Shown here in pieces: positions 2,808 through 59,000 of a stretch of 64,000 bases of DNA; position 1 is the first letter of the stretch; each line of letters opens with the position of its first letter. The stretch comes from Watersipora subatra (taxonomy: Eukaryota; Bryozoa; Gymnolaemata; Cheilostomatida; Watersiporidae), in assembly GCF_963576615.1 (NCBI RefSeq), contig NC_088708.1, positions 48,285,196 through 48,349,195 of the forward strand, read 5' to 3'. Position numbers and translations under genes: made by a program. The notes beneath the pieces are model-generated. The model was not told the origin of the DNA, ran no database searches, and saw nothing but the letters and a program-made list of their open reading frames with translations.

Positions 2808-23849
<21,042 letters not shown>

Positions 23850-24339: not shown

Positions 24340-24735
24340 CCAGCTGAATGCCCTGTGTTGCACAGGTAATAAAAACAGCTTATAAACATTACATTACCTG
24401 ACCTACTACTTTAACCCACGTTACCTTTACACTACAATGCCTGCAACCATTTATAAGCTGTTTTAATTACCTATACCAGGCATTCACCTGTGAGGCCAGC
24501 TGATTTTAATTACGTGTGACACAACGTCATTATGCATATTTTAACTGATATAATGAATATCTTCACCATTATAGTCACTATGCTCAGTTGAACACGGTAG
24601 TTTAATAGTTAAGCTCAATGCCTCCAGAACCAGACATCTGGATCAAATCCTCTGCAAAGCAGATTTTTCGTTACTGAAACTTATAAATATCGCTATAACT
24701 GGAAAGACAAACACTGAGGTTTATATAAACTAGCC
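24340..24735 (+). repeat. dispersed element with tRNA-like promoter, copy A
   Basis: It starts 'agctgaatgccctgtgttgc'. It contains 'gtagtttaatagttaagctc' (A-box-like) and 'tggatcaaatcctctgc' (B-box-like), and ends '...caaacactgaggtttatata'. Block by block it matches 36815-37195. Best read as a SINE of roughly 390 bp. Confidence 0.65.
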
Positions 24736-24964
24736 GAAATTCCAGCAAATGCCCAGCATTGCACTGGTAATAGAATAATTATTTAATGAATTTGAGTAAC
24801 TTATGTGGAAAGCTAGATCTTCACTAAAACGATACCCACATTTTGGGCCAGCTTAACTATCGTTATGGTCAATAGTGCTAGTTATTACCCTCAAGCAAGC
24901 GCTTTAGCATGAGTATTTCAACCAATGCAATCACTGTTTGCCCAATGTATTCATTGTATTTTGT

Positions 24965-25075
24965 GTAGTTTAAGGTTACATTCGCCGCCTCTATATCTGA
25001 AGGTCCTGAGATCAAATCCAGAGCTGTGTGGATTTTTCATTGTTCGATTTCATTTGCTATAACTATTGCTGTAAT
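24965..25075 (+). repeat. tRNA-like repeat fragment
   Basis: 'ttaaggttacattcgccgcc' and 'gagatcaaatccagagc' resemble the tRNA-like part of the 24340/36815 element. It is followed directly by the hairpin at 25076. Confidence 0.4.
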
Positions 25076-25152
25076 TTTTTGTTGAACCCTGTTTTCAGTT
25101 ATAGGAAACTGTTTCCAGTTTTCCTATAACTAGAAACAGGGTTCAACAAAAA
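25076..25152. repeat. 34-bp inverted repeat
   Basis: 'tttttgttgaaccctgttt' to 25109 and its near-perfect reverse complement from 25119 flank a nine-base loop, just before the (TA)n tract that borders the ribozyme array. Confidence 0.85.
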
Positions 25153-25165
25153 GAAAAACACTGAG

Positions 25166-25242
<77 letters not shown>

Positions 25243-25243
<1 letters not shown>

Positions 25244-25299
25244 TCATGCTACAGACAGTACTGTTTCGGCTATTGAAGCCTCATCAGTGCAGCTCAGAG
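25243..25299 (-). ncRNA. hammerhead ribozyme 1 (type I)
   Basis: On the minus strand: 5' stem I strand GCTGCA, core CTGATGA, stem II GGCT/AGCC with loop TCAAT, GAAA, stem III CAG-TA-CTG, cleavage triplet GTC, then the 3' stem I strand TGTAGC. Stem I pairs 6 of 6 with one G-U. Beyond an internal loop, CTC pairs with GAG. Predicted cleavage is between 25254 and 25253. Confidence 0.9.
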
Positions 25300-25501
25300 C
25301 TTAGGCAAGGGACACAAATCCCATTACCAATGAGAGTTGACTTCCTGCCACGAAACAACTAAGTTGACTCGCAGACTTTAAGAAAATCAATGTGCTGGCA
25401 CCAGAGTGCTCAAATCACAAAAGTGATGAGCTTTGCACAAAGGCTAATAGTGCCGCACCTCTCACAGAGTGCTCAACCAAACCGAAGTAAGGGAGCATAT
25501 A

Positions 25502-25558
25502 CTCATGCTACAGACAGTGCTGTTTCGGCTATTGAAGCCTCATCAGTGCAGCTCAGAG
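25502..25558 (-). ncRNA. hammerhead ribozyme 2 (type I)
   Basis: Same as copy 1 except that the stem III loop is CA instead of TA. All core bases and stems are kept. Predicted cleavage is between 25513 and 25512, 259 nt from the neighbouring sites. Confidence 0.9.
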
Positions 25559-25760
25559 CTTAGGCAAGGGACACAAATCCCATTACCAATGAGAGTTGAC
25601 TTCCTGCCACGAAACAACTAAGTTGACTCGCAGACTTTAAGAAAATCAATGTGCTGGCACCAGAGTGCTCAAATCACAAAAGTGATGAGCTTTGCACAAA
25701 GGCTAATAGTGCCGCACCTCTCACAGAGTGCTCAACCAAACCGAAGTAAGGGAGCATATA

Positions 25761-25817
25761 CTCATGCTACAGACAGTACTGTTTCGGCTATTGAAGCCTC
25801 ATCAGTGCAGCTCAGAG
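25761..25817 (-). ncRNA. hammerhead ribozyme 3 (type I)
   Basis: Identical in core and stems to copy 1. Predicted cleavage is between 25772 and 25771. This is the first ribozyme met by a minus-strand transcript entering the array. Confidence 0.9.
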
Positions 25818-25892
25818 CTTAGGCAAGGGACACAAATCCCATTACCAATGAGAGTTGACTTCCTGCCACGAAACAACTAAGTTGGAACTTCA

Positions 25893-26475
<583 letters not shown>

Positions 26476-26646
26476 ACACACAAAGTGAATGCTGCACAGT
26501 TCGTTACAGAGTGCTCAATGATAAATCAGAGCTAAATTATAAAATATGTATAAGTGGAACTTCACTCTATAAGTTAAACATTTGATTACTAATAGTTTCA
26601 TGTGGTACAATAAGTATCACACTCTTCAGATAAAATGTCTAAAACT

Positions 26647-37800: not shown

Positions 37801-40800
37801 ATTTAGTACAGTCAAAGCCACTCTTGGCATTGAGCTATCTAGTACCTTCAAAGCCACCCTCGCTATTGAAGTACATAAAAGAGCAGAAAAAACTACTTCA
37901 ATAGCTGTTTTTCAGTGAGTGAGTGAGAAAAAAGTTTGCAAGTCAGCAACCTTACAGCCTTCTATTCAAATTATTGTCTAGCTATCATAGCAAAGTTTTA
38001 CATATTAGTATTGGAATATTTACAGGGCTCTAAAAGGAGTAATGAGTTTTGTGCTGAAGGATTTAAAATCACCCAAGAATAGCAGTATTAAACAGATTAA
38101 AGTGATAAATTCTTTCATTAATTTTGATATATCTAGTTATACAAACTTGAATAGACTTCTAAAAAAGAATGTGCTATGTATTGCAGTTTGATGCTGTCTG
38201 TGGTGCTGCTCAGTACGTAACCATGGTGAACGTGGCTTGGATGATAAGTGAGGGAGTTGGTTCCATTTTAGGATCATATATCTGTGATCGGTAAGTGCTG
38301 TATATAGGACTTAACTATACACTTACATGTATAACCAATGAATTATATGATATACAGTTGAATAACTATAGCCAGTTATTTGTGTGGTGTACAACTGTAC
38401 ATTCCTAATCAATGGGTTGTCAAAGATGAAACTGTACAACTTTAGCCAGTGAGTTGTCTGGGCTACATCTGCACAGCTATAGTAAGTTAATTGTCTGCAG
38501 TAAAACTGTGCATCTATAATTAGTGAGTTGCCTAGGGTACAACTGTGCACCTATAGTCAGTGAGTTGTTTGGTGTACTACTGTACAGCTATAATTAGTGA
38601 GCTCTTAGGAACACCGGCTAATGTCTAAAGCCAAAAGGTTACCTGAATTAAAAATGATCTCCACATCCAATGAATTATGTAAGATACAACTGTACCTCCG
38701 TAGACAGTAAGCTATTGAGGATGCAGCCGTATATGTGTAACCAGTAAGGTATGTGAGATACAATTGTATATGTGTAACTAGTAAGGTATGTGAGATACAA
38801 CTGTACACGTGTAACTAGTAACGTTTGTGAAATACAACTGTACATGTGTAACTAGTAAGGTATGTGAGATACAACTGTACATGTGTAACTAGTAAAGCAT
38901 GTGAAATACAACTGTACATGTGTAACTAGTAAGGTATGTGAAATACAACTGTACATGTGTAACCAGTAAGGTATGTGAGATACAACTGTATAGGTGTAAC
39001 TAGTAAGGTATGTGAGATACAACTGTACTCGTGTAACTAGTAAGGTATGTGAGATACAACTGTACATGTGTAACTAATAAGGTATGTGAAATACAACTGT
39101 ACATGTGTAACCAGTAAGGTATGTGAGATACAACTGTACATGTGTAACTAGTAAGGTATGTGAAATACAACTGTACATGTGTAACTAGTAAGGTATGTGA
39201 GATACAACTGTACATGTGTAACCAGTAAGGTATGTGAAATACAACTGTACATGTGTAACCAGTAAGGTATGTGAAATACAACTGTACATGTGTAACCAGT
39301 AAGGTATGTGAGATACAACTGTACATGTGTAACCAGTAAGGTATGTGAAATACAACTGTACATGTGTAACTAGTAAGGTATGTGAAATACAACTGTACAT
39401 GTGTAACCAGTAAGGTATGTGAGATACAACTGTACATGTGTAACCAGTAAGGTATGTGAGATACAACTGTACATGTGTAACTAGTAAGGTATGTGAGATA
39501 CAACTGTACATGTGTAACTAGTAAGGTATGTAAAATACAACTGTACATGTGTAACTAGTAAGGTATGTGAAATACAACTGTACATGTGTAACTAGTAGCT
39601 TATTTAAAAGCAAACCAATGCTATATTTAATCAGTAATGGGAGTTAATTTTACATTTCTTTCACTGTTGTGAATATGGATGTACCTGCAGGTTTGGTCGC
39701 AAGCCTATGATCATAGTCACATTTGTGACTATCGGTGTGTTTGGGACAACATGCGTACTCTCTGTCAATCTAATTATGTATACCATAATGAGGTGCGCCA
39801 TGGCACTCGTCTGTTTCGCGGGATTTGCCTCATCACTTTCACTAAGTAAGTGGTTATTTTTATTAGATTTTATATTATTTGTAATAGCATTTAATTAAAT
39901 GTTTAGTTATATAACTCACAAATATTAAGAAAATCGTAATAGCTGTACTGTTATATAACTTATATATATTAAGATTATGGTAATAGATGTATTGTTATAT
40001 GACTCATAAGTAATCAGAGAATTGTAATAGATATATTATTATATGACTCATAAGTACTCAGAGAATTGTAATAGATATATTGTTATATGACTCATAAGTA
40101 TTAAGATAATTGTAATGGATTTATAATTATTATATAGCTCTGAAGATAGTTAATAATTTTATAGCTTCATAAAAAACTATTTTAGGTTTTTAAATGTTAA
40201 TTTAGAAAAAAGTGAAGTGGTGGAGATGAAAAAAGAGATTTCCATTAAAAACAACTAACTGCCGCAGTGTTAATTGTGTAGCTATCCTTTTTTATTTGCA
40301 CTAGCAAACTTTCAAACATTTAAAAATGAATGTATATTCTACTTAATACGGTAGCACTTCCACCTGCTGTCAGCATCCCATTTATGTGACTGTATTGTCT
40401 AATGACTGCCATAAATTCCTTGGTACACAGCAGCAACTTGTAGACGTTCTAAACTTTTTGCTCAGCGAATTTCCCCTTTTCTACAAAATGCGAAAGTGTC
40501 TCAAAAGAAAGAGTAAACTGCTAGTTCTTATAATAAATAGAGACTTGCAGGAGCCTATAACAACTGCTTATAGTTATCAATTGGTGTTATATTTGTTTCA
40601 ACTACAGTAACTGAGACTACAGCTCCCAACAAAAGGGCATATGCATTAAATGCACTCGATCTCTTCTGGGCGGCTGGTGCGGCGTCCCTCTCACTTTGGG
40701 GCTATTTTCTTAGGAACTGGAAGCATTTACAGCTGTTCATCAGTGCCTCTGCCTTACCACTTGGTATCTTATGTATCTGGTGAGTTTATGTCTTTATATA

Positions 40801-43800
40801 AACTTGTATCGCTGAATATTTTGAAAAAACCTTTTGAGATGATGGATAGTTGAACAACAAATTTTGCTTCAAAAACTGCAAATGTTTTTTGAGTTACTAA
40901 AAACAATCGAGGCTGTCATCAAATGCCTATTCATCGTCTTCGAGTAGGCTTCTGACTTTTTATGAACAAATGAGTCAGCTTCATGTGTTGTTTAGAAGCA
41001 AACGGAGTTCATTGCCAAGGTATGTAGGTGATTTCATGAACTGTCAGCAGAGTCTCGGCATCATCTCCTTTGCAAAATGGATCAAAAGATCTAAGCCTTT
41101 TAAACACCAGTTTATAAAAGTCTAATGTCACACTATATTTCTAAACAAACACATAATCCTAAGTGATTCTCGAGTCAGCTGGAGGTGAAGGAAAATCAGT
41201 GAAGCTTTGAGCAAGAAGCAAAAATCTTTGGCCAGCTAATGTTTATAGCATAGTCCACTGAAAAAGACTATTTGAATATTCGGAGTCAGAATTAGTGCAC
41301 TGTATAATATTATCACTTTGTTATTTCACCTTTCTACTCATATTTATAAAGATCAGGGGCAAACAGTAACCTATGACTTCCGTTTTTAAGCTCTTCTCTT
41401 CTATGCCTATCAACATTTTATTTTATTTTTTTATTACATAATAATGAACAATTATAAATAATGAACAATAGTAAACAGTAAAAATCGTTACATCACTGCA
41501 AAGCAAAAGTTCCAAGGAAGTTTATTCAAGAACTATCTATCTGCTGCCAAGAATGAAAATACTTATAATTATGCTAAAATGTGTTAAATCATGAACAATG
41601 GTTTAAAACAATATAAGAATTACCAATTTTCAGTATGACTTCACTTGCTGTATTGTACATATGGTTGAAAACCCTGCTTAGCTACATGTATTCTAAAATG
41701 ACTGTCTGTGATTAGTAGATTGTTCAAATAATTTTTTTTAGCATCGCTGCTGCTGACAATTATAGATCTGTAGCTATTTATTGGAAAGCTATATCCATGC
41801 TGTCGTTTTTAACGATTGCACGAATATTTGTTTGTTAGACTAAATTTCACTACATGGATTTGCAACGTTTTGGCAGGGCTCTTGACGAAAGCCCTCATTG
41901 GCTGGTTACAAATGGTAAACAAGATAAAGCTATAGATGTGCTAAATAAGATGGCAAGATGGAATAAGGTAGTCGCTCCTCATCTAGAGAGGAAGGAAAAT
42001 GGTTTGCTCGATGCGAAGGAGGAAGAAGCTCCTAGCCACAAAAGAGATAGACCTGAGAGCTGCTGCAATATTTGGAAATATCCACGAGTTGTTATTCGCT
42101 TTTTTGTCTTCTCAGCCGGCTGGTATGTGAATCACTCATTGGCTCATTGTATTTATTTAAGGGAAACTCAATCACAGGTCATGATCAGCATCGGGGTCCT
42201 TTGACAGCGAGTGCCCAATTGTGCGAGTTCATGGTCACTAGTTCGTTTCAAAGTCAACTAAAATGAGACAGATTAGATCTGATGCTGCGAGATCACTCAA
42301 GATTATAAGTTGTAACTGAGATAGTATGTTACTCATATTTATGAAAGATTATAGGGGTTAGCATAGGTTCTTTAATAGTCTTTGCCTTGATCTTAAAGCA
42401 TTTTTGTAATGCATATTTAAAAATACAACTTTTGTACTTAAATTGCTAAAAAAATTTAACAGCTCACAGGAGTAACATGATACTTGTGAGTTTTTCATTT
42501 TTCGAATTTGCCAATAGAGCACAAAAGTTTTAGCAATTGCAAGCTTTAGTGCAAAGTTTTATAAAGTATATGTAATATATAAAAGTAATTATTGCACTGA
42601 AATATTCTGGATTTATTGCTAAAAAATATGTTTAATGCGTACCGCTCTCTATCAATATGAGTAATAGTATATCACGATTGCAATACCTCGAAAGTGAGTA
42701 AGGCTTGATGTTACTTGAATTGAAGATCGTTTTATAAATTATTCAAAAACAGCGTATGCAAAATTTACATGTTTCAGATGCACTAGAAATATAAAAAAAA
42801 CAATTTTGTCATGTGGGTCGATATGAAGTATTACAACCAATAGGAATAAAGATAGCATCAAGCAATAGCAATAAAGATAACATCAACCAATAACAATAAA
42901 GATAACATCAACCACTAGGAATAAAGATAACATCAACCAATAGGAATAAAGATAACATCAACCAATAGGAATAAGGATAACATCAACCACTAGGAATAAA
43001 GATAACATCAACCAATAGGAATAAAGATAACATCAACCAATAAGCAATAAGAACCTACTGCTTAGAAAGTAATCATAAATGAAATTACATACTCTTAAGC
43101 AAAACTAGTCACTCTATAATCTTTACTACAGAGGTAATTGTGGTAGTATCAGTTTGTATTGACAGCTTTCCCTGTTTGTTATCACTTTCACTCGGTTTAT
43201 GATCCACGATCCCCGTAATTTTACGTCAAGGAGAGTTCATACCTTTAATTTCAATTCAAATTGACTTTCTCACTTTTCGCCACACTCCAAAATCTATGCT
43301 AAAAATATTGTATGTCTAAAATAAAGTAAAAATATATGTCTTTGCTATAATAAAGTTCATCTGTTCATCCAAAGCTTGAGTTAGTGGTTAGGATAATAGT
43401 TTGCTTTGCGTGCAACTCGCCCTCTTGACTTTCAGCCTATTACCCTGACACTCTACTACCTACATTAATCGGCTACCTTTCAGTATTCATAATAATTGTG
43501 AAAATATCTAGCCTGTGTGCTGTATCGACACACCTGACCATCACTCACAGCACATTAGACTGCCATGGTACTAGTACTGGTAAAATGAGATGAAAACTAA
43601 ATCTAAAATGTACAATCTTACAACCGACACAAGTCTGATGTAAAGCCTTCAACGAAGGAGTAGACAATTCCAACAACACCATTTATGTTGATGAAGTAAA
43701 ATTGATCCTGATCATTAAAGGAGATTGCACAAAATACTTGCTAGCTTGCTTAACTAAATCAGCTGCGTTGGCAACATACGCAGAGCTGTCTTGAAGGATG

Positions 43801-44414: not shown

Positions 44415-47400
44415 GAGTTATTTATATAAATAACAGACTAAATAAAAAGGTTTTTGTTTATATTTGTAGATTCGGTGGCAATCACAATTCTTAGCTTTAC
44501 CGGAAAGTTCTGCATATCAGCAGCATGGCAGATAATTCTTATCTGGCACACAGAGGTTTACCCAACAACATATCGGTGTACACTCACAGTGTTGAATGGT
44601 GTCGTAGGCAGGATTGGTATTGTGTCTGCACCGTATATGGTTGATATGGTATGTGATAAATGCTGAGAGACTCAATGTTTTCATATGTAAATGTGAATAA
44701 AGTCGTACAAATTGATAAATGATGTACCAAGTTAGTAAACACCTGTACCAACGCAAAAAAAATTTTTTACAGTCAAACAAATAATACTTGCTCTAACTGG
44801 GCACACGAATGATAGATCAACAAACTCTGAGATTTATATATAGGTAAAAGATATACTTTTTTCTTAAGTTCTTAAAGGGGTTCTGAAATTATTACCTAGA
44901 TGAGAGCTAATCTAGACCTGCTTGAAACAAATTTGTAGTAATGGGATTGTAGTAATTGCTTAATGGCTACGTTCTCTTTATAGTTTGTACACAATATATT
45001 TATGTATATATTACGCTATATATACTATATATATATATGTATATATACACTATACATATACTAAATATATATACTATATACATGTATATGCATATGTATC
45101 TTATATATACAAATTTATGTCTATATATGTATGCTTCAAACCTGAACTCCTATATGTAAACAAAGAGTGCGCTTTTACAACAAGAATTTACGGATATCTA
45201 GAGCCTGTTTAAAGTTGATATTCAAATGAGAAGCCCATGCATTTTAGATGATTAGCATATCTATCTACTGGAATGCTAAAAATAAAGTAACAACTGCTAA
45301 ACTGTATTAAATCCTTTCAATTTCTAAAGACTATTATTATTATTATTATAACTAATTTTATGGCATCAATAGGCTTGTCAGCATATGTCTCATCAGCTGT
45401 AACGATAGCATTGCATCACCACAATGTGGCGCTGTTGCAGGACAAGTACATTGATGTACCTAATGAGGAGTTTATCCTGCCTTCTATATATGTTGTGCTA
45501 ATGATCAGTGTCGGCCTCCTCCATATTATTCCTCCAGAGACCAACAACAGGAAACTTCCAGAAACCTTATTTGAAGCCAACGTTCGCAGGTTAGAAGCAC
45601 TTACCGCTTACTGTTTGAGAGTGTTCAAAAAGGCAAAAGATATGTTTAAAAAGGCAAAATTATGTTCCTTATATGTTGTTCTACAACTTTCGATTAAGTA
45701 TTTTCAAGGAGAATAGAAAAAAGCTTGGATGATTATATATTAAACTCTAACAAAATGTCAAGAGACTTTGTTGGTAGCCGTGATTAATTACAGTCAAGCC
45801 ATTAGCATAAAATAATATAGGTATATGGCATTATATGATACTATATAAAGATATAATATTGTATGATAGTGTATAAATATATATATATAGTATATATTAT
45901 TACACGAATATATAATATTATACGCAAGTTTAGAAGGCTAAATTATCACAGGACTTGAAAAAAAAGTGAGATATTTCCATGTGAAGATTTGATACCATTT
46001 CCACCATCACTACTCTCCTATTCGGAAATCAAACCACAAGCTGTTGTTCATTGGTCAAATGTTCTAGATGAGTAGGACATACCCACAGAATCTCATACAT
46101 AGTATGATATAGTCAAACATTAGTAATATCTATACATGTTAACACCATATTGTATGACCGAGTCTGTCAAAACGGATAAAAACCTACTTGGAGAGAAGCA
46201 AGCAGTCACAAGGCAGCTTAATCTACCGTATTTTAGAAAATGTTCGACAAAGATTTCCTGAAGCATACAACTTTCATAAAATTGTGAATTTCAAAGCAAC
46301 GCTTTGTAGCGTATCTGTAATATATAAAAGTAGTTATTGGCTCTGAATTTTTCAAAAAATTTTCTCAAAACATTTTAGTTTTTTGCGTACTGGTGTCTAT
46401 CAATAGGAGTGTCTATAAATAGGATTGTCTATCAATAGGAGCTGTCTATCAATAGGAGTGTCTATCAATAGGAGCTGTCTATCAATAACATTGTCTATCA
46501 ATAGGAGCTGTCTATCAATAAGAGTGTCTATCAATAGGAGCTGTCTATCAATAGGAGCTGTCTATCAATAAGAGTGTCTATCAATAGGAGCTGTCTATCA
46601 ATAGGAGCTGTCTATCAATAAGAGTGTCTATCAATAGGAGCTGTCTATCAATAGGAGTGTCTATCAATAAGAGTGTCTATCAATAGGAGCTGTCTATCAA
46701 TAGGAGTGTCTATCAATAGGAGTGTCTATCAATAGGAGCTGTCTATCAATAGGAGCTGTCTATCAATAGGATTGTCTATCAATAGGAGTGTCTATCAATA
46801 GGAGCTGTCTATCAATAAGAGTGTCTATCAATAGGAGCTGTCTATCAATAGGAGTGTCTATCAATAAGAGTATCTATCAATAGGAGCTGTCTATCAATAG
46901 GAGTGTCTATCAATAAGAGTGTCTATCAATAGGAGCTGTCTATCAATAGGAGTGTCTATCAATAGGAGTGTCTATCAATAGGAGCTGTCTATCAATAGGA
47001 GCTGTCTATCAATAAGAGTGTCAATCAATAGGAGCTGTCTATCAATAGGAGTGTCTATCAATAAGAGTGTCTATCAATAGGAGCTGTCTATCAATAGGAG
47101 TATCTATCAATAGGAGTATCCATCAATAGGAGCTGTCTATCAATAGGAGTGTCTATCAATAAGAGTATCTATCAATAGGAGCTGTCTATCAATAGGAGTG
47201 TCTATCAATAAGAGTGTCTATCAATAGGAGCTGTCTATCAATAGGAGCTGTCTATCAATAGGAGCTGTCTATCAATAGGATTATCTATCAATAGGAGCTG
47301 TCTATCAATAGGAGCTGTCTATCAATAGGAGTGTATATCAATAAAAGTGTCTATCAATAGGAGCTGTCTATCAATAGGAGTGTCTATCAATAGGAGTGTC

Positions 47401-50400
47401 TATCAATAAGAGTGTCTATCAATAGGAGCTGTCTATCAATAGGAGTATCTATCAATAGGAGTATCTATCAATAGGAGCTGTCTATCAATAGGAGCTGTCT
47501 ATCAATAGGAGTGTATATCAATAAAAGTGTCTATCAATAGGAGCTGTCTATCAATAGGATTGTCTATCAATAGGAGTATCTATCAATAGAAGCTGTCTAT
47601 CAATAGGAGCTGTCTATCAATAGGAGTGTATATCAATAAAAGTGTCTATCAATAGGAGCTGTCTATCAATAGGAGCTGTCTATCAATAGGAGTGTCTATC
47701 AATAAAAGTGTCTATCAATAGGAGCTGTCTATCAATAGGAGTGTCTATCAATAGGAGTGTCTATCAATAAGAGTGTCTATCAATAGGAGCTGTCTATCAA
47801 TAGGAGTATCTATCAATAGGAGTATCCATCAATAGGAGCTGTCTATCAATAGGAGTGTCTATCAATAAGAGTATCTATCAATAGGAGCTGTCTATCAATA
47901 GGAGTGTCTATCAATAAGAGTGTCTATCAATAGGGGCTGTCTATCAATAGGAGCTGTCTATCAATAGGAGCTGTCTATCAATAGGAGTGTCTATCAATAG
48001 GAGCTGTCTATCAATAGGAGTATCTATCAATAGGAGTGTCTATCAATAGGAGTGTCTATCAATAGGATTGTCTATCAGTAGGAGCTGTCTATCAATAGGA
48101 GTGTCTATCAATAGGAGTGTCTATCAATAGGAGCTGTCTATCAATAGGAGTGTCTATCAATTGGAGTATCTATCAATAGGAGCTGTCTATCAATAGGAGT
48201 GTCTATCAATAGGTGTGTCTATCAATAGGAGCTGTCTATCAATAGGAGCTGTCTATCAATAGGAGCTGTCTATCAATAGGAGCTGTCTATCAATAGGATT
48301 GTTTATCAATAGGTGCTGTCTATCAATAGGTGCTGTCTATCAATAGGAGCTGTCTATCAATAGGATTGTTTATCAATAGGAGCTGTCTATCAATAGGAGC
48401 TGTCTATCAATAGGTGCTGTCTATCAATAGGATTGTTTATCAATAGGAGCTGTCTATCAATAGGAGCTGTCTATCAATAGGAGCTGTCTATCAATAGTAT
48501 TGTTTATCAATTGGAGCTGTCTATCAATAGGAGTATCTATCAATAGGAGCTGTCTATCAATAGGAGTATCTATCAATAGGAGTATCTATCAATAGGAGCT
48601 GTCTATCAATAGGAGTGTCTATCAATTGGAGTGTCTATCAATAGGAGTATCTATCAATAGGAGTATCTATCAATAGGAGCTGTCTATCAATAGGAGTATC
48701 TATCAATAGGAGTATCCATCAATAGGAGCTGTCTATCAATAGGAGTGTCTATCAATAAGAGTGTCTATCAATAGGAGCTGTCTATCGATAGGACTATCTA
48801 TCAATATGAGCTGTCTATCAATAGGAGTCTCTATCAATTGGAGTATCTATCAATAGGAGCTGTCTATCAATAGGAGTATCTATCAATAGAAGTATCTATC
48901 AATAGGAGTGTCTATCAATAGGAGTATCTATCAATAGGAGTATCTATCAATAGGAGTGTCTATCAATAGGAGTGTCTATCAATAGGAGCTGTCTATCAAT
49001 AGGATTGTTTATCAATTGGAACTGTCTATCAATAGGAGTATCTATCAATAGGAGTATCTATTAATAGGAGCTGTCTATCAATAGTAGTATCTATCAATAG
49101 GAGTATCTATCAATAGGAGTGTCTATCAATAGGAGTATCTATCAATAGGAGCTGTCTATCAATAGGAGCTGTCTATCAATAGGAGTGTCTATCAATAAGA
49201 GTGTCTATCAATAGGAGCTGTCTATCAATAGGAGCTGTCTATCAATAGGAGTGTCTATCAATAGGAGCTGTCTATCAATAGGTGCTGTCTATCAATAGGA
49301 GTGTCTATCAATAGGTGTGTCTATCAATAGGAGCTGTCTATCAATAGGAGCTGTCTATCAATAGGAGTATCTATCAATAGGATTGTTTATCAATAGGTGC
49401 TGTCTATCAATAGGTGCTGTCTATCAATAGGAGCTGTCTATCAATAGGAGTGTCTATCAATAGGAGCTGTCTATCAATAGGAGTATCTATCAATAGGAGT
49501 ATCTATCAATAGGAGTGTCTATCAATAGGAGTATCTATCAATAGGAGTGTCTATCAATAGGAGCTGTCTATCAATAGGAGTGTCTATCAATTGGAGTATC
49601 TATCAATAGGAGCTGTCTATCAATAGGAGTGTCTATCAATAGGTGTGTCTATCAATAGGAGCTGTCTATCAATAGGAGCTGTCTATCAATAGGAGTATCT
49701 ATCAATAGGATTGTTTATCAATGGGTGCTGTCTATCAATAGGTGCTGTCTATCAATAGGAGCTGTCTATCAATAGGTGCTGTCTATCAATAGGATTGTTT
49801 ATCAATAGGTGCTGTCTATTAATAGGTGCTGTCTATCAGAAGTACAAAAATCAGCAAAAGATAATATTACTTAAATTTTTGAATTTTCTCTACAAACTAT
49901 TACAAAACACAACATGAAAAATTTCCTTTTTCAGCAGCACAAGAAATAGAAAAACAGCCACTTTTTGTCATATGTGCCTATATCATGTATTGCATAATCA
50001 TCAGTATTTAAGTTCACCATTGCATGAAAAGTAGCCAAGGTAAAATAAACAAGTACGAGGTAAGCAAGTCCGAAATTAGTTTTAACATCAGAGTATAAAG
50101 ATACTACTAGTGTGTCAACTAGGCATAACTTTCATATCGCACATCCTTTTTAAAATCTTCTTTTTGAAATTGTCTACTCATAACACATTTACATTGTGGC
50201 ACTAAGCTATTCTGTAATATATGGTGGTCAAGTGAAAGTCTCAATATAATTGTAGCCTTAATAAGCTTGAGTGCTGCATTGAATAAGCCCACTGACAGTC
50301 ATTTACTTTGACAGGTAAAAAATTTTCCAGAAGATGAAATCCTTCAAAATAATTAGTGGAGCTTTCAAACACACCAGTATAGACACAACTAGCATCATTT

Positions 50401-56000: not shown

Positions 56001-59000
56001 GAATGGTTAGTGATATTATATTGAATATCACTGTTTGATGATCAAAAACTACTATTATATTAACACCACTTCATTTATAATTAATTTCACTTTTCAATGC
56101 GTTCTAGAAAAAATCCAATTGAAATATTATAAATTCGCTTTAGCTGCCTGCAAACATTACAAGTGAAATGCTTTGGCAGAATAAGAAGTAGTCGTACATG
56201 TTAGAGTACGTAGTTCCTTTACATATTAGTAACATTCAACACATTTCAGTGCATCACCCAGCAGTTGCCCTCAGCTGGACTGTATTCAACAGTGCCCTCA
56301 ACGTCAAAGACATTGATTGAGTTATACAGACCTTTGCAATACTTGTGCATGTATTCGACTGTGTCCCGGCCTGGATCAAGGGTGATGAATATCGGTTGTA
56401 TATCTGGAGTGCTAGGATTACCATCTGTAATAGAAATTTTTCTTAAAAAGTCAAAATTTCTCACAGAAAATAGCAAAACAAGCGCTAAGCCGTGCTTTAT
56501 GGATGAACACAGTAAATGACATATTCTAAGAACATTAGGGTTTACTTAAACAGCTTCAACTATTACATAATGATTACCAAAGATGAGAGTAGTCTCCCCA
56601 TACCACAGATTTTTTTACAATACAATGTATATTACAGCTTTTAATATTGTGCATAAAATGTCAGGAGATATCAAACTTCCAACAGCCATGGCTCAATTCT
56701 GTTAAAAAATAATGTTTAGCAAATACAATAAGCCAACCTTAAAGGAATCAGGACTCTGACCATCTGTCTAGAGGTAAACATAATTACCATTTGCTAGCTG
56801 ACATAAACAGGTACTCTTTCCCGTATATAGTGCAAACAAACAAATAAAATACAAACATAAAATAATTAGTAATAATAACAAAATTAAAACAAAAAATAAG
56901 ACTCTCACCAATTCCTTCAACAACCTCGACAAGTTTCTCGAGCTCCTCAGGACAGATGTCTGGGCAATGGGTGAAACCAAAGTAAAGAATGAGCCACTGT
57001 CCACGGAACTCTGCATACTCCCTCCTCTTGCCATTCTGGTCTGTGAGAGTCCAATTTAGTGTACCGATGCCGCTGTCTGACAGCGCAGCAATTCTACCTC
57101 CTGCTTGATCTGTTAACAGAGACTAATATCACGGAGACAAATTCACCTAGTGACGATAAGATGTTAGACCAAAACTTCATATAGCTACATTCCTTGTTAA
57201 CAGCAAACCAAGGTTGCGCGGTGTTAACCATATATTTTAATTGTTTATGTTTGTTAGCAGTGAGTGACTAGGGATGAGTGTTAATATCCATTAAAATTGG
57301 AATTAGCTAGTCTTTTAATTTGTAGCATGAGTATTTCTTAGTTTGGTTCACAACTCAAATATCATGACTAATCTCCCATCCACTTCAACTCAAATATCAT
57401 GACTCATCTCCCATCCATTTCAACTCAAATATCATGACTAATCTCCCATCCATTTCAACTCGGTTCTAAAAAACTAAAATTTAACTTGAAACTTTCCAAA
57501 ATGAAATGGAAATACAGTGCTGACTAGTTCCAAACTAAACAGAATAAATTAATCAGCCCACAAAGGCAAAGTGCTGATAACCATCTAACTACTCTTGCTT
57601 TTCATATTTATTTTTAAAAATCCTATTTATTTACTAATTGAGTACATTTACTTTCCATCATATACTAGTTAAATTAAATGCCATAAAACATACAGCTACA
57701 TGGCAGCTTGAATTTTATTCCCTCCCTGTAGAACATTCAAGAACAAACAGCAGATAAACTACTTCCATTCAAACTAACCCAACTATCATTATTTCCCAGC
57801 TCGCAAAGTCTTCCGTTGAAGGTTTTCTTCAACACTCTGTAGTTTTATTCTGCCATAAGCAGCTCCTTTATGTTCTGCTATATCACAAGTCTCTTTAATT
57901 GTCTCCCTTGGCACAGAAATAATTTAGGGCTGAATGCTCTTTTTCACATCCCACAGCAGATCTCAAACCATTGAATTTCCATTTGTAAGTCTAGAATGCT
58001 AACTGTTGTTCTATTGCCAATCCTTCCTCAAAAGTGAACAGGATTCATTGATTAACTAAAAACTCATAAATTTGATTTAGATTCATGTTTATTTAAAGTG
58101 ACCAGCTCAAATGGAACATCAGAAATTTTTGAAATGGTTATAAACAAATAACCAGTCGTGCAAAAAAGTACAACAATAGTTATTCAAAGAAGAGACACGT
58201 GAATCACAACCTAGCCCATGTGACCCTTCGAGAAAAGCTGACACAAACTGCTGAAGGTATAACAGTACACAGAAGACTGAATAATTGAATATACATACGA
58301 ACAAACTTTTTCCACTCTAACCAAATGTAGACTGCCGCCACCATCCCTGTGATGAGGGCAGCAACGAGCAGGCTCTGTGGCGTGATGTTTAACTGAAAGC
58401 GAAAAACACAGCACATGTACTGGTGAAATATTCAGAGAGTTTCATAACTGCTAATGATTATAGCCCAACCCTAACTGGTTGTGCTCCCTATTTATAAATT
58501 TATTAGGATTCCATACACAGTTTGTGAGAGATATAAAATGGCTAGTATATTCAGAGAGACCATTTCATGTCTATGTCTATGAGTGTAGATGGTTATAAGG
58601 ACCATCATGATTCTCATGTAGATAGTGGCCAGTGGCCAAAGGTTTAAAATTGTATCAACATTCTGAGATTAAAATAAAACTTGGTGACATTCTGTTTAGA
58701 AATATGCGAATTATTGGGAATATATTTACAAAAAACAGCTTGTGCATAAGAATTTCAGTAAAGAGGTAATGTTATCATCAAGGAACGATGATGATAACAC
58801 CGAAACTGGTGGTCATGAGAGCAGCACTTTCAAATTATTAGCACAAACAATAGCAGCAGAATGAAAATATGAAAACATGTGCAAGTACATATACTTACAT
58901 GTGCAATATCCAATACATGTACAAGGTATCACCACAAAAGCATGTCTTTACTCATGTGCACGCAATCATACTAAGCTAACAAAAAATTAAAACCAATTTT

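Follow-up and report, generated by a model that had tools for sequence, protein, structure and literature searches.

The question raised by this locus is how a short tandem array of hammerhead ribozymes with no long reading frame came to lie inside a (TA)n microsatellite, and with whose machinery. Within the window, by which we mean the whole 64-kb stretch of DNA analysed, TRF delineated an array at 25238-25884 with a period of 259, 2.5 copies and 99% matches. The first-pass annotation had described three complete hammerheads in tandem 259-bp units on the minus strand, and TRF and our structural scan agree on this; of the span that it had given (25241..25884) the right end stands, but the left end has to be moved, as the array reaches 25238. 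The features concerned are as follows.

25238..25884, minus strand: retrozyme insertion (TRF, BLAST of the unit on the window, sequence)
25772-25884, minus strand: 5′-truncated piece of 113 nt, part of the retrozyme insertion
25513-25771 and 25254-25512, minus strand: two full 259-nt units, parts of the retrozyme insertion
25238-25253, minus strand: 16-nt 3′ tail past the last cleavage site, part of the retrozyme insertion
25243..25299, minus strand: hammerhead ribozyme 1, predicted cleavage after 25254 (structural scan; Rfam HH9 23.5 bits, below gathering)
25502..25558, minus strand: hammerhead ribozyme 2, predicted cleavage after 25513 (structural scan; Rfam HH9 21.0 bits, below gathering)
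25761..25817, minus strand: hammerhead ribozyme 3, predicted cleavage after 25772 (structural scan; Rfam HH9 21.7 bits, below gathering)
25238..25242, minus strand: TATAT, unit positions 12-16, where the (TA)n primer putatively anneals and where the insertion stops on its 3′ side
25169..25242, no strand: (TA)n tract on the 3′ side in the sense of the element, putative target (TRF, sequence)
25896..25947, no strand: (TA)n tract on the 5′ side, putative other half of the target (TRF, sequence)
25885..25895, no strand: 5′ junction filler, within the 17-nt stretch 25883-25899 (repeat search)
18412..20875, plus strand: R2-type LINE, candidate helper (Pfam, PDB, flanks, other genome copies)

The final 5 nt of the 3′-side tract are common to tract and retrozyme. 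At the other end, the junction filler is made by the first copy of an exact 17-nt repeat, TGGAACTTCACTCTATA, which is found at 25883-25899 and again at 26555-26571. Two SINE-like repeats (24600-24730 and 24960-25174) have GATCAAATCC and AAAGACAAACACTGAGG-like stretches in common, and the second stops directly at the (TA)n tract of the retrozyme. Large minisatellites were also delineated by TRF in the window, at 46393-49838 (period 16/33/49), 7091-8571 (45 bp), 22271-23621 (50 bp) and 38676-39597 (37 bp). The window also has two host exons: one at 56784-57122 (minus strand) matching SCO1/SCO2 (Pfam E 1e-15), for which the best PDB matches are labelled SCO2/SCO1 homolog, mitochondrial, and one at 41839-42204 (plus strand) with a sugar-transporter match under the cut-off (E 0.002).

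Read on the minus strand, the core of the unit comprises CTGATGA, a stem II GGCT/AGCC with the loop TCAAT, GAAA and GTC. Stem I (GCTGCA/TGTAGC) has 6 bp including one G-U, with a further CTC/GAG pairing past its internal loop, and stem III is short, with 3-4 pairs. When both strands of the 64 kb were scanned for the core CTGANGA / GAA / A..TH with stems I-III enforced, exactly three hammerhead sites were found, with predicted cleavage after 25254, 25513 and 25772, and the same scan returned no site in 150 first-order random windows (19.2 M strand-bases). Rfam at the gathering threshold gave no match anywhere in the window; in relaxed mode over 25150-25950, all three copies matched Hammerhead_HH9 on the minus strand with 23.5, 21.0 and 21.7 bits (E 0.003-0.018), and since these values lie below the gathering score of 52, the covariance models, to which the first-pass annotation had looked for a decision, neither accept nor reject the three copies. 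The free-fold minimum of a 67-nt hammerhead piece did not contain the hammerhead (z 0.29). The whole unit folds better than its shuffles (-92.4 kcal/mol, z -3.8), likewise with a free minimum lacking the hammerhead, and forcing the hammerhead in a rotated unit costs 3.6 kcal/mol (from -91.1 to -87.5), a figure that leaves tertiary contacts out. Judged from its core, the unit hammerhead is likely to cleave itself.

The window lies on contig C1 of a genome that we searched in full (783.7 Mb in 239 contigs, C1 to C11 measuring 46-79 Mb each). Its size and repeats are those of a eukaryote, probably an animal, as the type of element and the SCO1/SCO2-like exon suggest. Matches to the unit, whole or in pieces, numbered at least 118 with 94-100% identity among the best 40 of 1330 candidates that were scored. 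The pattern CTGATGA-N8-20-GAAA-N5-13-GTCTGTAG had 1460 genome matches vs 2 for the reversed pattern, the exact 25-nt ribozyme core 1253 vs 0 for its control, and the exact 3′ junction TAGCATGAGTATATATATATA 667 copies vs 0 for the reversed control, although the last number should not be read as a tally of insertions, since one short-period array on C2 accounts for at least nine of the places listed. We observed short-period tandem arrays derived from sequence around the retrozyme 3′ junction at L141 (C1:19225125-19225300) and at C2:36461440-36461773, as if a fragment of the retrozyme had turned minisatellite. The unit has a GC content of 45.9%, i.e. below 50%, and no long reading frame, the longest stop-free run in a tripled unit being 37 aa in sense and 66 aa in antisense. 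The type I core, the 259-bp tandem units, the 46% GC, the lack of a long frame and the dispersed multicopy insertions bear out the retrozyme design that the first-pass annotation had recognized, and the genome-wide search for the 259-bp unit that it had proposed did bring out a dispersed family. These data support the view that the window array arose as a single insertion of a non-LTR retrozyme that is dispersed and codes for no protein.

The identical 25-nt core (CTGATGAGGCTTCAATAGCCGAAAC) also occurs in 27 IMG/VR contigs (L111-L137), within short hammerheads that have different stems I and III and no 259-nt unit, and an ATG follows 7-48 nt downstream of the core in all 27; a search of genome_contigs for the core returned no match. 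With the loop left free, 82 matches with 24 different loops were obtained in 80 listed IMG/VR contigs, and TCAAT ranked third, with 7, among the matches listed. We take this identity of core between the IMG/VR hammerheads and the retrozyme to be convergence.

To see where insertions begin and end, we fetched 70 loci (L021-L090), comprising the best-scoring unit matches (L021-L060, from the search in which 40 of 1330 candidates were scored) and the first 30 matches of a hammerhead pattern crossing the cleavage site (L061-L090). Two matches shorter than 60 nt were dropped, leaving 68 insertion records, which were aligned to the unit with numbering that starts at the cleavage site. In 64 of the 68 records the retrozyme stops on its 3′ side a short way beyond that site, at unit positions 13-16; position 16 accounts for 61 of these, and positions 13, 14 and 15 for one apiece. 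The exceptional 3′ ends lie at 83 (L053 and L054), 3 (L033, a diverged or irregular copy) and 233 (one copy in L042). Two pairs of records are duplicates, L053/L054 being a single insertion within a duplication and L034/L035 a single insertion with 1792 bp identical; with both pairs merged there are 66 events, 63 of them with a 3′ end at 13-16. It is in this stretch (positions 12-16) that TATAT, and even TATA, occurs for the only time in the unit. The flanks are rich in the same dinucleotide: a TA run of at least 10 nt was present in the 40-nt 3′ flank of 59 of the 68 records and in the 40-nt 5′ flank of 56, while the background in the window outside the retrozyme was 935 of 62961 40-nt stretches (1.5%).

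Insertions that stop at the cleavage site might escape a pattern crossing it, and we therefore ran a second search with the core by itself. In the region compared (C1, and C2 up to 14.6 Mb), 14 core matches lacked the crossing pattern among the matches listed, and 16 core matches were fetched, 11 of these 14 and 5 lying beyond the end of the crossing list. They have point changes in the crossing pattern, run into another unit, or end in TA beyond it; the nearest to the cleavage site, L145, ends a few bases past it with GTCTGTATATAT. No 3′ end at the cleavage point was found among the 68 insertion records or the 16 further core matches.

The 5′ ends are of another kind. They range from unit position 1 to 249, all round the circle and mostly in (TA)n, with insertion lengths of 65 to 1403 nt. 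Their distribution across the unit is non-uniform (P 0.004), and 11 of the 66 events start in unit positions 1-16 (P 0.002). A cluster of 16 of the 66 insertion 5′ ends (L021-L090) was also seen in unit positions 67-82, with a P of 2e-6 for a range that was chosen after seeing the data; as it lies near the odd 3′ end at 83, it is possibly a site where reverse transcription stops or where the RNA breaks. The insertion with that odd 3′ end (L053:1080-1680 and L054:1069-1669, one insertion in a duplicated segment) covers unit positions 1 to 83 and is followed by A8 and then by DNA for which BLAST gave no matches except in other cuts of these two loci, and looks like a polyadenylated or differently primed copy.

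Where the TA flanks are imperfect, the TA run after GAG often does not exceed the TATAT of the unit itself, measuring 5 nt in L023, L029 and L072 and 3-4 nt in L078 and one L028 copy. In others the run before the flank changes is longer, at 6 nt in L024 and L083 and 8-10 nt in L031, L059 and L064. Target-site duplications, which exceed 4 bp in those metazoan retrozymes that show them, would not be visible in pure (TA)n. In L029 an 18-nt repeat flanks both sides, but the same 18-mer recurs twice more downstream, so it is no clean target-site duplication. Units differ on average by 0.4% inside an array and by 1.9% between arrays (52 loci, 60 arrays and 142 units, duplicate insertions included). 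Ten variants shared inside arrays gave 8 array cases that were mixed and 18 that were fixed, which is not decisive between a circular and a multimeric template.

A circle-templated, (TA)n-primed insertion of a hammerhead retrozyme is, in our judgement and with considerable confidence, the best explanation of the motif, the copy number, the fixed 3′ end, the (TA)n flanks and the spread of 5′ ends observed. Each hammerhead would cleave the minus-strand transcript in which it lies, and ligation would close the resulting 259-nt monomers into circles. A helper reverse transcriptase would nick a (TA)n microsatellite, and the freed TATAT 3′ end would pair with the sole UAUAU that the circle contains, 12-16 nt downstream of where the cleavage site was resealed. 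The annealed (TA)n DNA would then prime rolling-circle reverse transcription, with copying carried round the circle for anything from a quarter turn to more than 5 turns. Rolling-circle copying from one primer site would leave arrays inside (TA)n that share their 3′ end but differ in where they start. Against this reading, a few 5′ ends (positions 1, 3 and 4) may reflect run-off from RNA with a cleaved 5′ terminus. The exceptional 3′ ends of L053/L054, L042 and L033 also speak against it, as does the free fold of the unit, in which the hammerhead is missing.

A linear self-cleaved monomer does not suit these junctions as a template. If it were primed at its own 3′ end, the insertions would stop at the cleavage site, and none of those examined does; if it were primed at positions 12-16, only 16 nt of cDNA could be made. 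The template would therefore have to be continuous over the resealed junction, that is, a circle or an uncut multimer. The second of these is an alternative, though clearly a less probable one: a linear multimeric or read-through transcript of an array would serve as template, (TA)n would anneal either to an internal UAUAU or to the (UA)n flank at the 3′ side of the transcript, and transposition would not involve the hammerhead. Since (TA)n terminates the copies in the genome, read-through would give the transcript a long (UA)n stretch that matches better than UAUAU; the TA runs of 6-10 nt that precede imperfect flanks in L024, L083, L031, L059 and L064 agree with this. The Penelope-like element (PLE) Poseidon inserts uncleaved RNA in vitro, according to the accessible part of PMC11167929, and uncleaved multimers primed at an internal UAUAU would be expected to give an identical footprint. 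Yet L023, L029, L072 and L078 have no copied (TA)n tail and hold no more than their own TATAT, to which a (UA)n donor flank would have added; the three hammerheads of the window look intact and should cut multimers; and the 3′ end of the insertions falls on the single internal TATAT of the unit. We thus favour the circle over the uncut multimer because the hammerheads look intact and because some insertions with imperfect TA hold TATAT and nothing further, and more weakly because units differ less within arrays, since the copying of a homogeneous array would also yield similar units. An ordinary satellite, made tandem by unequal crossing-over or replication slippage and retaining the hammerhead as a relic, can be dismissed as highly improbable, for although the units stand head to tail and some descendants have become short-period tandem arrays (L141; C2:36461440-36461773), slippage does not yield short arrays that are scattered yet have one 3′ end and a target in common, and copies of less than one unit share the same 3′ end.

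The circle-templated reading calls for a helper, and a candidate lies in the same window, 4.4 kb from the array. The LINE at 18412-20875 encodes a reverse transcriptase domain (RVT_1, Pfam E 3e-27) and its protein is nearest, among solved proteins in the PDB, to R2 (E 6e-29), ahead of LINE-1 ORF2 (about 1e-15 to 1e-14). A C-terminal piece aligned with R2 at E 0.06, with CCHC aligned, and a second, non-significant stretch contains PD..D, which we take to be the restriction-like endonuclease motif. The frame in the window is shorter than the 1123-aa frames of other copies, and TA runs lie near both ends. Among the scored genome places, 56 match the LINE protein, namely the window's own and 55 at 96-97%, many with open 1123-aa frames. 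LINE copies (L103-L110) start with GGACAGATAGCGCAGTTGGTAAGG, which in our view resembles a tRNA A box; ARAGORN called no tRNA in the head of the LINE in 5 loci, each with only 28-48 nt of head.

The LINE and the retrozyme insert at the same (TA)n target. Nine of the 12 LINE 3′ ends that were fetched run into TATATA, and 6 of 8 fetched 5′ ends are preceded by (TA)n. Genome-wide, TATATATATA lies within 20 nt of 996 of the 1271 exact plus-strand LINE 3′ ends; counts on the minus strand are not comparable, every gap length being counted there. The two elements also lie near each other. The 61 retrozyme loci compared (175 kb) hold 8 exact LINE 3′ ends where the genome-wide total of 2564 would predict 0.57 (P 2e-7), and on C1 up to 46.8 Mb, where 100 LINE 3′ ends were listed, 5 of the 22 listed retrozyme 3′ junctions are at most 2 kb from a LINE 3′ end, with 0.19 expected. 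A piece of the LINE was found in 22 of 63 loci, a count that includes L034/L035 twice and a 29-bp match at the window locus, and of the 19 such loci that were mapped, several (L026, L034, L039, L057 and L073) show hardly anything except TA separating the two elements.

This R2-type LINE is the most likely helper of the retrozyme, and we put its having mobilised the family at about even odds. The fuller proposal, in which the circles are copied by (TA)n-preferring R2-type LINE machinery through rolling-circle reverse transcription started at UAUAU, and are not satellites of PLEs, we advance tentatively, with somewhat less assurance. Alternatively, and more neutrally, (TA)n tracts may accept several types of element, as the SINE-like repeat that also adjoins the tract of the window would suggest. 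That the helper is a PLE and not the LINE seems rather unlikely to us. PLEs were considered a strong candidate for metazoan retrozymes by Cervera and de la Peña (PMC7229834), in whose account they carry type I hammerheads and form tandems, and Poseidon cleaves AT-rich DNA and begins reverse transcription at an internal point, which lies downstream of the hammerhead cut site (PMC11167929). A genome search with GIY-YIG (PF01541), whose scope is PLEs that bear this endonuclease, gave 16 candidates and one match, in a 92-aa frame; hence no multicopy endonuclease-bearing PLE was found by this model, which divergent PLEs may escape. Moreover, Frangieh et al. (PMC11167929) describe, in the part of their paper that is accessible, an internal initiation site of Poseidon that is not homologous to the cut DNA, whereas the retrozyme 3′ end lies in a stretch homologous to its target.

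The family is otherwise similar to the metazoan non-LTR retrozymes, with which it shares the type I hammerhead, tandem units (about 150-450 bp in those published) from dimers to multimers, a low GC content and a multicopy state (PMC7229834); the accessible part of that paper describes them as having no LTR or PBS. Circular RNAs were shown there in coral, mussel and axolotl, and the life cycle suggested for them, of self-cleavage, ligation to a circRNA and reverse transcription of the circle, is like the one proposed here; reverse transcription of the circle, possibly target-primed, was suggested to be carried out by LINEs or PLEs (PMC7229834). What goes beyond the known design is the insertion footprint, with its fixed 3′ end and (TA)n target: the metazoan retrozymes have no 3′ end, target or priming site defined in the accessible part of PMC7229834, while here there is a TATAT end and a (TA)n target shared with a LINE. 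In the accessible literature, judged by titles and the beginnings of abstracts, we came across no description of the target into which an animal retrozyme inserts or of the site at which it is primed.

Poseidon PLEs resemble the present family in having a hammerhead near an internal start of reverse transcription, AT-rich targets and tandem copies, but they are protein-coding and start in an AC-rich stem loop (PMC11167929, accessible part). Plant LTR retrozymes (the subject of PMC4918200) are likewise non-autonomous and hammerhead-flanked with circRNA intermediates, but differ in their type III hammerheads, LTR-like repeats, PBS, PPT and 4-bp target duplications (PMC7761336, as far as accessible). 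The carnation retroviroid-like RNA CarSV, a plant element, is a small RNA whose multimeric DNA copies have been reported from microsatellite-like genome sequences (PMC9695139), so circle-derived DNA in microsatellites is not a wholly new idea; the likeness to the present retrozyme is by that description and not by target or junctions. On the side of the LINE, microsatellite specificity was described for LINEs with a restriction-like endonuclease by Kojima and Jurka (PMC4640811, accessible part), in HERO families and in Togen for (TG)n. The LINE of the window, too, is R2-related and sits in a dinucleotide microsatellite, which here is (TA)n.

As far as the accessible part of PMC7229834 goes, the enzyme that moves animal retrozymes and the way in which their circles are primed were left open, and the present junctions address both questions. 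Found in hundreds of copies, they point to one priming site and one target, with a candidate helper in the same genome, which makes both questions directly testable. If the circles are indeed copied by the (TA)n-preferring LINE machinery, the retrozyme would live as a parasite whose sole requirements are a circle-making hammerhead and a five-base match to the target of its helper.
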